From positions 579,523 through 643,522 of the forward strand of contig CP070638.1 of the NCBI GenBank assembly GCA_020354025.1: 64,000 nucleotides of DNA, given 5' to 3'. Every line of letters begins with the position of its first letter. The first letter of the stretch is position 1. The stretch is from Fidelibacterota bacterium. GTDB taxonomy: Bacteria > Fidelibacterota > Marinisomatia > SCGC-AAA003-L08 > TS1B11. Shown here piece after piece: positions 3,295 through 47,075 of the stretch. Below the pieces are notes generated by a model. The model was given only the letters and a program-made list of their open reading frames with translations. It was not told the DNA's origin and did not search any database. A program made the translations under genes and the position numbers.

Positions 3295-6200
3295 TCATAG
3301 ATTCAACCGAGGGAGAGAGATGCTAACACGCCAGCTTTTATAGGGCTGCTGACCGTCCTCAGCTGCCCAACTGTGCCACAAGGGTATAATAAACTTTATC
3401 AGTCCCAGTCTCAGGATGATACCGGCGTCCATGTATGTTTGCCAGGATGCATTCCCACCATTGTTGGTGCCGGCAACGTCGGCGAACAGAGCTATTGGGA
3501 ATCCGCTGGTAACGTCCAGATTCATTGACCAGGCAGTCATTCCCGGGCTTTCAGTGGTCAATGCCCGGATACCTGGTCCCTCATCGGGAATATAGAACTG
3601 TCGATAGACAGCAAGCGCACCGGTCCCGGTGCGGTTGAGAGCGACCAGGTTATTAAAATCGGTATTCAGCCCGCCGCTGAGCCAGAAACGGTACTGATCA
3701 GGGACCAGGTGCTTGTCGGTGAGGGTGTGCCCCAGCCAGGCGCGCAGTCGGATCAGGCCTTTCCAAGCATGGCGATATGATACCCTAGCGCTGCTCTGGA
3801 GGATGACCGCTTCCCGGACGGGATCTGAACCATCAGCCTGTCCGGTTACGGTGCGTAGATGGGCGTCGAGGTCCCAGTCCAGCAAGGCATGGGCGTGGTT
3901 CCAATACTTGGCATTTAGAGCGGCACTAGTGAAAGTGCCGGTGTCCCAGAGGGTTTCATCAAGGGCATCCTCAGTCAGATTCTGCTCATCGAGCACAATG
4001 CTCACTGATAGAGCCGGGGAACTTACGGCCCGCTCCCGAAAAATGGCTTCAGCCCCGAAGCGCATCAGGCTGTAGTCCGGGTAACCGGAGTATTTCATTT
4101 TTACGGAGAGCTGGTCCGTTCCCCAGAGGCGATAGCGCGTGAGGGCCAGCCCCGCGCTCCCTGCCAGACGTTTTCGCTTAAGGCTGTAATACAGGCCGCC
4201 GGTGAAGGCGTTCTTCGAGGGAGGCAGTGCACCGCCATAGAAAGCGGCACCCGGCAGTAAGCCGCTGTAAGCGGTACCATAAAGCATGGGCAGGAAGAAA
4301 AGCTGTGACCGACCCATTTCCGGCGCGCTGAGGAGGAACCGCAGAGCCGGTTTTTGCAGATTGATATCTCCCAGGCGCAATAAGGGTAAGTGATCGTTGG
4401 AGCGATCGGCGTCCGGCGCGTAGCGGCCCGGATCCGTTGTGGCAGAGTAGACACCGCCGCCACTGAAGGTGATGGTTCTTGATCCGGTGAATCCTGGTAT
4501 CCACTTTAAGGCTAGAACCGCTCCCTGCTCGTCAAGCGTAGCGACTTCCACGGGTGCTTCAATCTCGCCGTAATTGGTTACCGTCAGCTTAACCTCGGAG
4601 CCCAGCCGGGTCATTCCACTCACACCGTAGTCCAACTGTTTTGTAGTACCGATAAGGTCATCGAAGAACCAGGAGAGGTCCTCGCCGGTGACGGTCTCAT
4701 AGGCCATTCTCAGATCCCCAGGTCCCGGGTGAGCGAATGACCAGGTCTCTGCAAAGGCATCCCAGAGAGTCCGGTTACGCTCCTCGCCCAAGTAGTGTCC
4801 CACAAAATCGAAAACAACAGGAGCTTTTTGATGGACTGTAAAGGCATAGCTAAACAGGCTACCAGTGGTGAAATCACTATTTATCGGTACATTATCACGA
4901 GTTCCGATGACGAGGTTGGCAAAAAAGTAGTTCACAGAACGCCTGGTGAAAGGTTTCCTCAATAGCCGGTTCAATCCATCAGGGAGACCGTAGAAGAAAC
5001 GGGCGCCGTTTTCAGGGCCGTACATGGTGTGCCAGTAAGGGATTTCCGAGTAGCCGGTAAGACCTTCGTCCAGCCAGGTGTGCTCCCGCTCATTGAATCC
5101 GAATATGCCATAGTGCCAGTTGTGCCCCACCTCGTGCATGATAGTTATTTCCAGCAGTTCTTTATTACCGGCGATGCCAATGATCGTGATATTTGGATAT
5201 TCCATGGCCTGGTTAGTAATCTCACGGGATGAAGCGGCAGAGACGTGGTTATAGGGGTATGTGCCATATTGCCGGCCCATCCATTGCGCGGCGTCATGGA
5301 TATACTCGATGGACTCTTCCCAGAGATCAGCAAGCTCAGGCAGGTAAAGGGACCACAGGGTGATAGCCCGGGAGGAATCCTCCACCCATAGAATCCCTTT
5401 CTGCACCAGGTAGCGTTTATCGGCGAACCAGGCGAAATCGTGGACCCGTTCCTGGTGGAAGTGTAGGGTCTTGGTGGGGCCTTCCCCCGGCTCGGCGAAT
5501 TCCCGTTTCTTTAGCTGCTTCAGCCAATTCCGGCGGGCTTTTCTATCGGGCAGGTCATTGTCGGTCTTCAGGGCGTAATACTCGGCGGTAACAGCCACTA
5601 AGCTGTCCAGGAAAACATACTCAGGGTCGCCCTCCGGCAGGTCCCCGGTAGCCATGACCACGTACTCTTCGGGGAGGGTAATACGCACGTCGAAGGAACC
5701 GAATTCACTGTAGAACTCGCCCAGATCCAGGTACGGCATAGCATGCCAGCCATGGCGGTCATACACCGCCGGCTTAGGGTACCACTGGGTGATCTCATAG
5801 TGGTTGCCGGTGTGCCCCATACGGCTGAAAATCCTGGGGATCTTAACGAAAAACGGCGTTTCAATGGTCACCACGCCTCCTGGTGGCAGAGGGTGAGGTA
5901 AATGAACTCTAGCTACATCAATCCACTCGGGGTGGTATTCCCACTTTAAGGTAGTCTCGCCGGATCGGAAGTCGAGGCTGTCGATGTAGCCGCGTTCTTC
6001 ATCACGGGTGTAGTAAAACTGTCTACTACCCTGCCGAAATCGTTGTTGAGCGAAAGCCGTTTGGTTGTTTCTATAACCGTTGGGCCACAGGTGGAACCAG
6101 ATAAAGTGCAGGGTATCGGGCGAGTTGTTGGTATAATCCAGGGAGAGGAAGGCTGACAGGGTGTGGTCCCTATCATCGAGCGTTACATCGATACGATAGG

Positions 6201-43444: not shown

Positions 43445-43981
43445 CTACGCTTTAAACGGTTCGAAGCTCACAAAATCGGCGTGGTGGACGATGATGGACT
43501 CAACCGTCCGGGGACCCAGGTCACCCTCCTTGGAGTGAGTGGCGATGATGTGCTGCACTTCCGGTGGTAAGTCGAAGCGGGCGGCGATGGCTGCTCCGCT
43601 GAAGGGGTGACGGAGGAGCTTGCCCACATCACTCGTTTTGAGCTGACCGTCAACGATCTCATACTCCATGAGTTTTCCGACGTCAATCAGGATGGCTCCG
43701 GCAATTAAGGTATCCATATCGATGCTGAGCTCATCGCTGAAGTTCGCCTGCATGCGCTTAGCGATGTCCACCGCCAGCTGCACGCAGGTGCGTTTATGGT
43801 TTATAAAGGATACCTTACAGTCCTTAATGAGGAGAGAGAAAGGTATCTTTTCCAGGTCTTCCGGGGTCAGGGCACTATTCTTGATGGCATAAGCCCAGGC
43901 GTCGGCTACCTTCTCCTGTAACGCCTTATCCTGTATCCATTCGATCTCAGGCCAGATGGCCAAGACTTTGTTACGCATCAT
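43445..43981 (-). CDS. HD-domain-like protein
   Basis: 178 residues. It follows the HD hydrolase pattern: His in FINHKRTC, then AGAILIDVGKLMEYE where HD should be (Ile replaces His; Asp kept), then RHPFSGAAIAARF, IATHSKEG and the final VHHADFVSFEPF. The loss of the central His suggests a weak or altered metal site. It overlaps the end of citF by 11 bases (ATGATGCGTAA), preceded by AAAGGGA, and is followed 7 bases later by the aconitase gene. Its tight place in the operon points to a role in the same pathway, perhaps as a small-molecule hydrolase or regulator. Confidence 0.75.
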   Translation of the reverse strand: MMRNKVLAIWPEIEWIQDKALQEKVADAWAYAIKNSALTPEDLEKIPFSLLIKDCKVSFINHKRTCVQLAVDIAKRMQANFSDELSIDMDTLIAGAILIDVGKLMEYEIVDGQLKTSDVGKLLRHPFSGAAIAARFDLPPEVQHIIATHSKEGDLGPRTVESIIVHHADFVSFEPFKA

Positions 43982-45536
43982 TTGTTCCCTTTACCTTAAA
44001 CACGCTGTCCAGCACTGTACCGTCAACCCACTTGACGATACCGATGACCTGGTCGGTGAACTCGGGTTTGGCCGGCGGGCCGCCGCACAGCTCTTCAACC
44101 TCGGCCTTAATCTCCGTGATCGGCCGGATGGGGAGGCCGCTGTCTTTCGTGGCTTTAATGAGGTCCTTTCGCAGCGGATTGATGGTGATGCCCCGCTCGG
44201 TGACGATCACATCGATAAGCTCACCTGGGCCGCAGAGGGTGGTGACGCGGTCAACGATGATAGGGATACGGTCCCGGAAGGAAGGAATGGGGAGGATGGT
44301 ACATTTTGAGAACAGGCAGTTCTGCCACCCGCCGATTCCGTGGAGCAGTATACCGTCGGAGTGGGTCACCACATTGGCGTTAAAGTCAACGTCCACCTCC
44401 GTGGCACCTAACACCACCACGTCCACCATGCTGGCGAAGTTCCCCTTTCCATGCCAGTTGTAGGAGGTAAACGGTGAAGTGTCGATATGCCGTGGATTTT
44501 CCCGCATGGATCGCACCCCCTCCAGGTCGAAGGTCTGGCCGTCCAGGATAAAGTCGGTCAGGTTCTCTTCCAGCATCTCCACCAGGTATTTGGTGGAACC
44601 GCCCCGGATAAAGCGGGCTTTTATCCCCGCTTCCTTCATCATCTCCTTAAGATATATAGCAAAGGCCAGGGAAGTGCCTCCCGCCCCGGCCTGGAAGCTG
44701 AAGCCATCGCGCAGGATACCCGCCGCTCGTACGAACTCGGCAGTGAGTTCAGCGATATACTGGCGGTCGGGGGAGCGGGTCAGCTCGGTGGTGCCGGAGA
44801 CGATTTCCTCCGGGTTCCCGATCCGGTCTACTTCCACTACGTAGTCGATGTTCTGCCCCATGATCTGCCAGGGCAAACAGGGGAATGGTACCAGATTGTC
44901 GGTGACCACGATGGACTTGTCGGCGTATAGGGAATCCACAAGGCCGAAGCCCAGTAACCCGCAGGCCGAGGGGCCCCGGTCTCCGGTGGCGTTGCCGAAG
45001 GAGTCGGCTGTAGGAGCGGCAATCACGGCAATGTCAATGTGCACCTCACCATCCTGCACCGCCTGCCAGCGCCCACCGTGGCTGCGCAGCACGGCCGTAC
45101 CATTCATTTTGCCCGATGAGGCGTACTCACCCAGGGGTCCATTCAGCGATCCCTCAATCCAGGTGATAAGGCCGCTTTCCAAATGCTTGATGATCGGCTC
45201 GTGACAAGGAAAAGACGCAGATGGGAACCAGCGCAGGTTCTTCACTCCCAGCTCCGCCGCAGCTTCAAACACCTGCACCATGAGCAGGTCGCCATCGCGG
45301 AAATGATGGTGGGAAGATATGGTCATGCCGTCCCGGAGGCCGGCCTTCTGCAGGGCTTCCTTAAGAGACCTAACCCGCTTATCGCCTCCCGGAGGGTAAT
45401 CCGTGCAGGTGCGAACAGGTGGGGCAGCCTTGTTGCCGGTGGGCCGGTATTCGCCCACCCCCTGGAAGGGCGTTTGTTCTGTGCCGTTGACCTCAGTAGG
45501 GACAGGCCTGCCGGCGGTGTTCTCAACGAGTTTCAA
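43971..45536 (-). CDS. citF: Citrate lyase alpha-subunit-like CoA transferase
   Basis: 521 residues, CitF family (acyl-ACP:citrate/citramalate transferase). N-terminal GEYRPTGNKAAPPVRTC, then SHHHFRDGD (family block), EGSLNGPLGEYASSGKM, AAPTADSFGNATGDRGPSACG as two pieces, and FQAGAGGTSLAFA. It would swap the acetyl group on the carrier for a citrate-like acid, working with CitD and CitE. TTG 45536 is the start, with AGGA about 10 bases upstream. The same protein type also serves citramalate lyase, which I favour given the aconitase neighbour; this is inference. Confidence 0.88.
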   Translation of the reverse strand: MKLVENTAGRPVPTEVNGTEQTPFQGVGEYRPTGNKAAPPVRTCTDYPPGGDKRVRSLKEALQKAGLRDGMTISSHHHFRDGDLLMVQVFEAAAELGVKNLRWFPSASFPCHEPIIKHLESGLITWIEGSLNGPLGEYASSGKMNGTAVLRSHGGRWQAVQDGEVHIDIAVIAAPTADSFGNATGDRGPSACGLLGFGLVDSLYADKSIVVTDNLVPFPCLPWQIMGQNIDYVVEVDRIGNPEEIVSGTTELTRSPDRQYIAELTAEFVRAAGILRDGFSFQAGAGGTSLAFAIYLKEMMKEAGIKARFIRGGSTKYLVEMLEENLTDFILDGQTFDLEGVRSMRENPRHIDTSPFTSYNWHGKGNFASMVDVVVLGATEVDVDFNANVVTHSDGILLHGIGGWQNCLFSKCTILPIPSFRDRIPIIVDRVTTLCGPGELIDVIVTERGITINPLRKDLIKATKDSGLPIRPITEIKAEVEELCGGPPAKPEFTDQVIGIVKWVDGTVLDSVFKVKGTNDA

Positions 45537-45686: not shown

Positions 45687-46913
45687 CTATTCCAGGTGCT
45701 TCCAATCCTTCTCCAACGATCCCCCGGCTACCGCCAGATCCACGATACGCTGGGCACGCTTAACCACTGGGGGATCGATCATCTTGGTGCCTAGCGAGAC
45801 CACCCCCAGTCCTTTAGCCTGGGCTTCGTCAAAAGCCAGGACGATCTCCTTAGCCATCTCAATCTCATCCTCAGTGGGGGCGAAAGCCTTGTGGATCACC
45901 CTGATCTGCCGGGGATGAATGGCTCCCATACCGTCAAAGCCCAAGGACTTAGCCTCCATAGCCGTAGACCGCAGCCCCTCCATGTCGTCCACATCACTGA
46001 AGACGGTGCCGGTAGCCTGTAGACCAGCCGACCGGGCCGCGTTCACCACCATGCTGCGGGCGAAAATGGACTCCTGCCCCTCAGCGGTCCGCTGGACACC
46101 CAGATCTGCGGTATAGTCTTCCAGGCCGATAGCTAATGCGACGTTATTGCCGCTTGCCCTGGCAATGGCCGGGGCGTCGACAATACCCTGGGTACTCTCC
46201 AGTATGGGCATGAGAAACACCGGCTCTTCCCGGCCGCAGCTCTTGCATATCTCAGCAATTTTAGCGTCGACGGTCCGGATCTGGTCCGCAGTCTCTGCTT
46301 TGGGAATCAGGACGAGGTGTACCGGTTGGGGCACCACTGCCTCCAGGTCCTCCAGTCCCAGGTCGCCCTGGTTTATGCGTACCATGGGTTCAGCATCAAA
46401 GAAGTCCAGGGTCCGGAGTGCATTGCGTACAATGAATCGCGCCGAGAGCTTCTCCGGAGGGGCGACCGAATCCTCCAGGTCCAGGATGATGGCATCCGGC
46501 TGGTGAATGCCCGCATTGAGCATGAACTTGGGCATGGTGCCGGGGATATAGAGGCGGCTGCGGCGGAAGCGGTCCCGCCGTGATCCCTGGCGGGTCTGGT
46601 CTTTCAGCTCCGGCAGGGATACGGCCTCTAATTCAGGATGGGCCATTTTTACTGCGGCCTCGATGCGGGCTTGAACCACAAAAGGCAGAGCACCGTAATC
46701 TTCAATATGCAGGGATGCGTGGGCAATGCCGAGTTCCGTCAGAGTCTGTTCGGCCAGCTGGTGGATGGACTGACCGTACATGACCATGACCCTGGATTCC
46801 AGCCCGATATCAAGCCCGCCGGAAGTCCTGGGTCGGTACCGGATGATACAGTCCGAGCGGATTTCCATCTCGGGATCGGGTTCGGGAGCGGCGGAAATGA
46901 AATCAGTATTCAT
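45687..46913 (-). CDS. CitD-CitE fusion: carrier domain joined to citrate-lyase beta subunit
   Basis: About 408 residues. Residues ~20-105 match the CitD carrier (RYRPRTSGGLDIGLESRV, TLTELGI, DYGALPFVVQARIEAAV), normally a separate ~95-residue protein. Then comes CitE (RSRLYIPGTMPKFMLNAG, DAIILDLEDSVAPPEK, IGLEDYTADLG, GAIHPRQI). At the site of the prosthetic-group serine in E. coli/Klebsiella CitD (..ES-S/G-D..), this protein reads IRSD: Arg in the exact position, Ser one place on. No citC, citX or citG is near. ATG 46913 is used; a GTG at 46982 would add 23 residues before any homology. Confidence 0.8.
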   Translation of the reverse strand: MNTDFISAAPEPDPEMEIRSDCIIRYRPRTSGGLDIGLESRVMVMYGQSIHQLAEQTLTELGIAHASLHIEDYGALPFVVQARIEAAVKMAHPELEAVSLPELKDQTRQGSRRDRFRRSRLYIPGTMPKFMLNAGIHQPDAIILDLEDSVAPPEKLSARFIVRNALRTLDFFDAEPMVRINQGDLGLEDLEAVVPQPVHLVLIPKAETADQIRTVDAKIAEICKSCGREEPVFLMPILESTQGIVDAPAIARASGNNVALAIGLEDYTADLGVQRTAEGQESIFARSMVVNAARSAGLQATGTVFSDVDDMEGLRSTAMEAKSLGFDGMGAIHPRQIRVIHKAFAPTEDEIEMAKEIVLAFDEAQAKGLGVVSLGTKMIDPPVVKRAQRIVDLAVAGGSLEKDWKHLE

Positions 46914-47075
46914 GTCTAAAGCTACGCTCTCTTCCTTCACAGCTCCACTTGTGGTTATCGTTGCGTTTTGTAATGGTGACACCGGTACACGTTACGGATT
47001 TCATCCTCGGTGGCATTGGGCTTGAGGAGCGTATGGTCAATCCCGGATGCGATATCATCATCGGATTTCATATTC

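Follow-up and report, generated by a model that had tools for sequence, protein, structure and literature searches.

The window, as we call the 64,000-nucleotide stretch of DNA analysed here, belongs to a genome assembled as a single contig (3.40 Mb, 95% complete) that is closely related to Candidatus Neomarinimicrobiota (L032, CP070787). On one strand it carries citDE, then citF, a gene for an HD-fold protein and a gene for a hydratase, and these four alone make up the cluster in the window (Table 1). The HD-protein gene overlaps citF by 11 bases. The open frame of citDE runs over 45687-46982 (minus strand), and the ATG at 46913 agrees with the starts of homologues such as L003. The initial annotation described a carrier (gamma) domain placed ahead of the beta subunit in a single chain, and Pfam bears this out: PF06857 (ACP/CitD; E 2.9e-17, 63.2 bits, residues 43-113, profile positions 12-82 of 83) is followed in the same ORF by PF03328 (HpcH_HpaI/CitE; E 2.5e-52, 177.8 bits, residues 141-357), with residues numbered on the 431-aa reading P0001. 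The alpha subunit is present as well, since CitF scored 438.5 bits against PF04223, with a cut-off of 27. All three components missed their NCBIfam equivalog cut-offs (citF, 492.8 of 501.45 for TIGR01584; citE, 282.7 of 443.4; citD, 55.3 of 63.5). Between glmM and citDE we also recognised by eye a deoC stub (MKSDDDIASGIDHTLLKPNATEDEIRN...) at 46985-47073 (minus strand); the same place in L032 holds an intact-looking DeoC-like ORF of 292 aa (4935-5810), so deoC seems to be truncated in the window.

Table 1. Genes and features of the citDE cluster, in window positions.
Feature	Position	Strand	Evidence
citDE, carrier (gamma-like) domain fused to CitE-like lyase domain	45687..46913	-	Pfam, alignment
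Carrier domain PF06857 as matched; attachment position just outside, before the match	46644..46856	-	Pfam
R-S-D at canonical Ser14-Ser15-Asp16	46851..46859	-	Alignment
CitE-like lyase domain, TIM barrel	45723..46562	-	Pfam; nearest solved folds free-CoA lyases
citF-like alpha subunit (CoA/ACP transferase) of a distinct subfamily	43971..45536	-	PF04223, TIGR01584, tree
HD-fold partner protein, 178 aa; HD-doublet His replaced by Ile (IDVGK)	43445..43981	-	
Homoaconitase-type hydratase, aconitase superfamily, 662 aa	41449..43437	-	TIGR00139

We aligned the carrier domain with the canonical CitD of seven named records (Klebsiella, Peptoclostridium, Streptococcus, Gluconobacter, Azospirillum, Limosilactobacillus, and Fusobacterium), all of which carry the motif L/I-E-S-S-D. 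Klebsiella Ser14 aligned with an Arg of citDE (codon 46857-46859) and Ser15 with a Ser (codon 46854-46856), within the window motif IRSD, just as the initial annotation had read these two residues. A canonical CitD copy from Bacteroidales (L155) reads F-E-S-S-D, and E. coli K-12 CitD reads L-E-S-G-D. We take Ser14, the first Ser of the canonical motif, to be the residue bearing the prosthetic group; because E. coli CitD has no second Ser there, the attachment position must be the one aligned to Arg in citDE. Among 139 distinct fused proteins from Neomarinimicrobiota, Bacteroidota, and others, this position is R in 102, K in 27, Q in 5, P in 3, H in 1, and S in 1, and position 15 is S in 129, G in 6, and A in 4. 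The sole Ser at the attachment position occurs in a Bacteroidota protein (L158), in a genome (G485) from which CitG is absent. The Asp that follows the site is invariant in an 18-row alignment; the motif search pattern included this Asp and the preceding S/G/A, so that their constancy among the 139 proteins is partly built in. An Arg at the site is not a matter of chance or sequencing error, since the same pattern recurs in 139 distinct homologues. These results confirm that the attachment Ser has been lost in citDE and that the pattern extends well beyond the window.

Carrier sequences were gathered in three sets: 89 came from the phylum, of which 88 show the site; 37 from Bacteroidota, of which 36 show it; and 16 from other matches. 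The Bacteroidota set represents the genomes found to have the domain when 395 were sampled evenly. Rows were dropped where the contig begins within the motif (L111), the carrier part is lacking (L125), the N-terminal strand is missing from the frame (L182), or the N-terminal part is missing (G187), as were the G183 fragment and the second G035 fragment. L032, which is likely a repeat of L003, was excluded from the motif counts.

The operon of citDE lacks citC, citX, and citG, as had been proposed, and the absence extends to the whole 3.40-Mb genome. Neither CitX nor CitG was found there, and the sole CitC-family match (21.9 bits) is CoaD (TIGR01510, 200 bits), so no CitC is present. The initial annotation had named a Ser exactly at the attachment site, with citX and citG elsewhere in the genome, as the finding that would speak against it; we found Arg and neither gene. 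Across the phylum, PF06857 was present in 88 of 245 Neomarinimicrobiota genomes, and CitG and CitX in 0 of 245 each. A protein search likewise gave 88 of 245, in a set that is not quite identical because of broken contigs. PF06857 occurs at 91 places in the phylum, and at 86 of them it is fused, in an open frame of 389 aa or more; at the remaining five the frame is short (79-178 aa), and several of these short frames touch contig ends. Of the 395 sampled Bacteroidota genomes, 37 contain PF06857, always within a frame of 377-455 aa, and CitG was absent from all 37.

A further 17 genomes with the fused gene (among which G259 also belongs to the Bacteroidota set and L032 is a Neomarinimicrobiota genome) included two with CitG, G257 and G258. 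The former, from Bacteroidales, carries a separate canonical set, citD(ESSD)-citE-citF-citXG-citC, and its fused protein (L044) reads RSD; in the latter, a contig ends with a citXG fragment and citC. The canonical operon of G257 (L155) encodes CitX and CitG as a single fused chain of 454 aa. The same CitG search was positive in 7/7 records with canonical operons, which were chosen for those operons and so show that the search works, not how frequent CitG is. These searches covered the source genome for CitC, the 245 phylum genomes for CitX, and additionally the Bacteroidota and other genomes for CitG.

To characterize the protein further, we built an AlphaFold2 model of citDE from the 18-row alignment (mean pLDDT 87.7, pTM 0.86). 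For this model Foldseek placed human CLYBL and malyl-CoA lyases at the top, and the structures of several of these contain CoA or acyl-CoA; the carrier domain alone gave no match to solved structures at E up to 1. The lyase domain differs from canonical CitE at three positions (162 rows, reduced to 139 distinct, against 8 canonical; positions as in P0001): position 143 is Arg in 139/139 fused proteins and Met in 8/8 canonical ones, a basic residue (Lys or Arg) stands at position 152 in 131/139 and in 0/8, and all 139 fused proteins have Leu or Ile at position 225, whereas 7/8 canonical proteins have Arg and the exception, a copy beside glutamate-mutase genes, has Met. CitF was compared in 42 fused-associated and 7 canonical rows. 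Basic residues at 258 (R, 42/42), 308 and 311 (R, 37/42 each), and 316 (K/R, 37/42) are matched by none in the 7 canonical proteins, and three of these gained residues surround the GG loop. Position 132 is Asn in 42/42 as opposed to Arg in 6/7, and W404 (41/42) and N406 (42/42) stand where all seven canonical proteins have His and Asp. The charges gained in CitF could possibly grip free CoA; the covalent prosthetic group lacks the 3'-phosphate of free CoA. The exchanged arginines of CitE and CitF may mark a change of substrate; as the arginines that were lost are linked to citrate, homocitrate or a different homologue may take its place. A tree of 49 CitF proteins has a fully supported, long branch between the 42 fused-associated and the 7 canonical sequences; since the tree program cautions that long branches meet, we used this split alone. 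Fused proteins from several phyla share 48-77% identity with the window protein and an invariant core (18 rows). The complex is best read as citrate-lyase-like and as a distinct, old subfamily.

We then considered the genes around citDE in the window and in 20 longer stretches from the phylum, which were picked by contig extent before their gene content was known; some of them stop at a contig edge, and some neighbourhood queries were taken from these same loci. citF was present in 21/21, followed by the HD protein (16), an aconitase-superfamily gene (14), a dehydrogenase (12), a PrpD-like gene (10), an acyl-CoA dehydrogenase (5), and an anion symporter (1). In L199, L200, L205, L206, and L208 the PrpD-like and acyl-CoA dehydrogenase genes occur together in the cluster, and this acyl-CoA dehydrogenase is related to acryloyl-CoA reductase and glutaryl-CoA dehydrogenase. 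Outside the phylum, 2 of 13 stretches, L035 (Ignavibacteriales) and L044 (Bacteroidales), have the HD protein, the hydratase, and the dehydrogenase; the other 11 have no HD protein or hydratase within reach, and two of them (L042, L045) have the dehydrogenase. The HD-doublet His is replaced by I, A, M, or L in 20/20 HD proteins (the window, L157, L044, and other clusters), so the HD protein may not be a normal hydrolase. Compared with solved structures, it showed no convincing relative, with one match at E 0.099.

The hydratase passes the homoaconitase model TIGR00139 (860.7 bits, cut-off 529.9), and the genome holds a separate mitochondrial-type aconitase (TIGR01340, 1104.7 bits) and a citrate synthase. 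The clustered dehydrogenase is of the isocitrate/homoisocitrate type. It scored best with AksF2, under the cut-off of that model, and scored equally against the two kinds of solved enzyme, isocitrate dehydrogenase (229.9 bits) and homoisocitrate dehydrogenase (224.5 bits). Where solved isocitrate dehydrogenases show Asn it has Ile, as does Thermus homoisocitrate dehydrogenase; it lacks the Arg of the Thermus enzyme. No homocitrate synthase was seen beside the clustered hydratase and dehydrogenase. In family f23, to which G003 belongs, 15 genomes have the fused gene and 0/15 have citrate synthase. In G019, also of f23, citrate synthase is present and the fused gene absent.

The genes analysed here keep the fold and the partner subunit of citrate lyase, have joined carrier to lyase, have lost the attachment Ser in a set of 139 proteins, and occur without CitG and CitX. 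We consider it likely that they encode a prosthetic-group-free, citrate-lyase-like complex that uses free acetyl-CoA/acyl-CoA, and the enzyme probably works with ordinary free coenzyme A. We infer the use of free CoA, the order of the reactions, and the role of the carrier domain as follows. The covalent 2'-(5''-phosphoribosyl)-3'-dephospho-CoA arm would have been given up. The CitF-like subunit would transfer CoA from acetyl-CoA to a hydroxy-acid (citrate or a close homologue), yielding an acyl-CoA and acetate, and the CitE domain would split the acyl-CoA into a 2-oxoacid and acetyl-CoA. In sum, the hydroxy-acid would give a 2-oxoacid and acetate, with acetyl-CoA as catalyst; because acetyl-CoA would be used catalytically, neither CitG and CitX (for the arm) nor CitC (for priming) would be needed, which fits the pattern in the source genome. 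The carrier-like domain, tethered to CitE by the fusion, might serve in CitE-CitF assembly and possibly in non-covalent CoA binding.

Several lines of evidence favor the use of free CoA: the Ser is gone, CitG and CitX are absent, the canonical copy in G257 is accompanied by its own maturation set, CitC is absent from the source genome, CitF has gained basic residues, and some of the nearest solved folds are in complex with CoA or acyl-CoA. Dimroth and Eggerer reportedly found in 1975 that subunits isolated from canonical citrate lyase act on CoA thioesters. Moreover, characterised CitE-like enzymes outside citrate lyase use free acyl-CoA (PMC3832036). Counting against the use of free CoA are the Ser kept at position 15 in 129/139 proteins and the Ser of L158 at the attachment position. 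The constraint on the carrier domain, visible in its invariant residues (18 rows), weighs in the same direction, since an idle remnant would not need it, and the charges gained in CitF come from a comparison with just 7 canonical rows. An unrelated route of cofactor synthesis, or a modification elsewhere on the protein, is conceivable.

The initial annotation had left a choice between a Ser shifted by one and free CoA thioesters, and of these the second, a prediction from sequence, fits all the genomic evidence. In the first, an unrecognised transferase would place the prosthetic group on the Ser of RSD, one residue on, and this Ser is indeed present in 129 of the 139 distinct fused proteins. 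However, it corresponds to canonical position 15, a mere neighbour of Ser14 in LESSD that is Gly in E. coli, and it is replaced by Gly or Ala in 10/139, including a protein from a single-contig, 95% complete genome (G003; L138, ARGD). With the donor synthase CitG also absent from 245/245 phylum and 37/37 Bacteroidota genomes, attachment at this Ser is improbable. We give even less credence to the view that the carrier domain, or perhaps the entire complex, is decaying and inactive, which is hardly believable: the attachment Ser is essential for the canonical citrate lyase cycle and its loss would fit decay, but frames are intact at 86/91 PF06857 places in the phylum, partner genes are conserved, and identity remains at 48-77% across several phyla with an invariant core.

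A further alternative concerns the substrate only and is compatible with free CoA. Here the chemistry would be kept, but in place of citrate the enzyme would act on homocitrate or some other homologue that is longer or altered. The operon would interconvert a 2-oxoacid and its one-carbon-longer homologue by way of an alkylmalate, the dehydrated form of this compound, and a beta-decarboxylating dehydrogenase. In favor of this, the hydratase scores above the homoaconitase cut-off even though the genome has its own aconitase and citrate synthase, CitE 225 and 143 and CitF 132 differ from the canonical residues in a way that could alter specificity, the dehydrogenase has the Ile of Thermus homoisocitrate dehydrogenase and no Asn, and 10/21 clusters include a PrpD-like protein. 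Conversely, the role of these residues in specificity is predicted and the citramalate-type comparison consists of one exemplar, the dehydrogenase scores equally with both types and lacks the Thermus Arg, and the f23 genomes, with the fused gene and no citrate synthase, would fit a role with citrate. We regard such a substrate as a serious possibility, though we lean against it. Citrate itself, the substrate implied by the initial annotation, has nonetheless become less certain, given that both the residues and the neighbouring genes speak for a longer or altered one.

The PrpD-like and acyl-CoA dehydrogenase genes hint at a longer pathway. On a broader and rather doubtful reading, a prosthetic-group-free lyase would use free acetyl-CoA catalytically to cleave or form homocitrate or a different homologue of citrate, its former acyl-carrier domain serving in non-covalent CoA binding or assembly, and would head an undescribed ATP-free pathway. 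That pathway would comprise the lyase, the HD-fold factor, a PrpD-like dehydratase, a Lys4-like hydratase, and a beta-decarboxylating dehydrogenase, clustered in Neomarinimicrobiota and present in a shorter version in some other phyla.

Textbooks present citrate lyase as dependent on a special CoA derivative that is covalently bound. If free CoA is indeed used, a widespread relative works without the covalent arm, and the chemistry does not require that arm. This would also explain genomes that are annotated with citrate lyase and have no maturation genes, and it would bear on claims of a reductive TCA cycle that rest on this annotation, an example of which, in Marinimicrobia, is given in PMC5688066. 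Were the substrate a homologue of citrate, the annotation would be wrong and a new pathway would lie behind it. Within the open-access literature, screened by title and the start of the abstract and with subscription journals largely outside its reach, we found no report of a prosthetic-group-free or CitD-CitE-fused citrate lyase.

Compared with ATP-independent citrate lyase (EC 4.1.3.6) and citramalate lyase, the complex has the same CitD carrier, CitE lyase, and CitF transferase, and CitF adjoins CitE as in citrate lyase. Unlike in citrate lyase, CitD is fused to CitE and its attachment Ser is gone, the source genome has no CitC, CitX, or CitG, all three NCBIfam cut-offs are missed, and CitF lies on a long branch away from canonical CitF. 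With the free-CoA lyases (malyl-CoA lyase, human CLYBL, and (S)-citramalyl-CoA lyase) citDE has the TIM-barrel lyase domain in common; these enzymes use free acyl-CoA (PMC3832036), which for citDE is predicted, and they have no carrier domain or CitF partner, whereas citDE has both. The clustered hydratase passes the model of the fungal-type homoaconitase (TIGR00139), and the clustered dehydrogenase resembles homoisocitrate dehydrogenase in scoring best with AksF2, below its cut-off; unlike in the setting of those two enzymes, they are found here together with a citrate-lyase-like complex. Together, these comparisons suggest a complex that would work like citrate lyase, yet fails several of its defining features.
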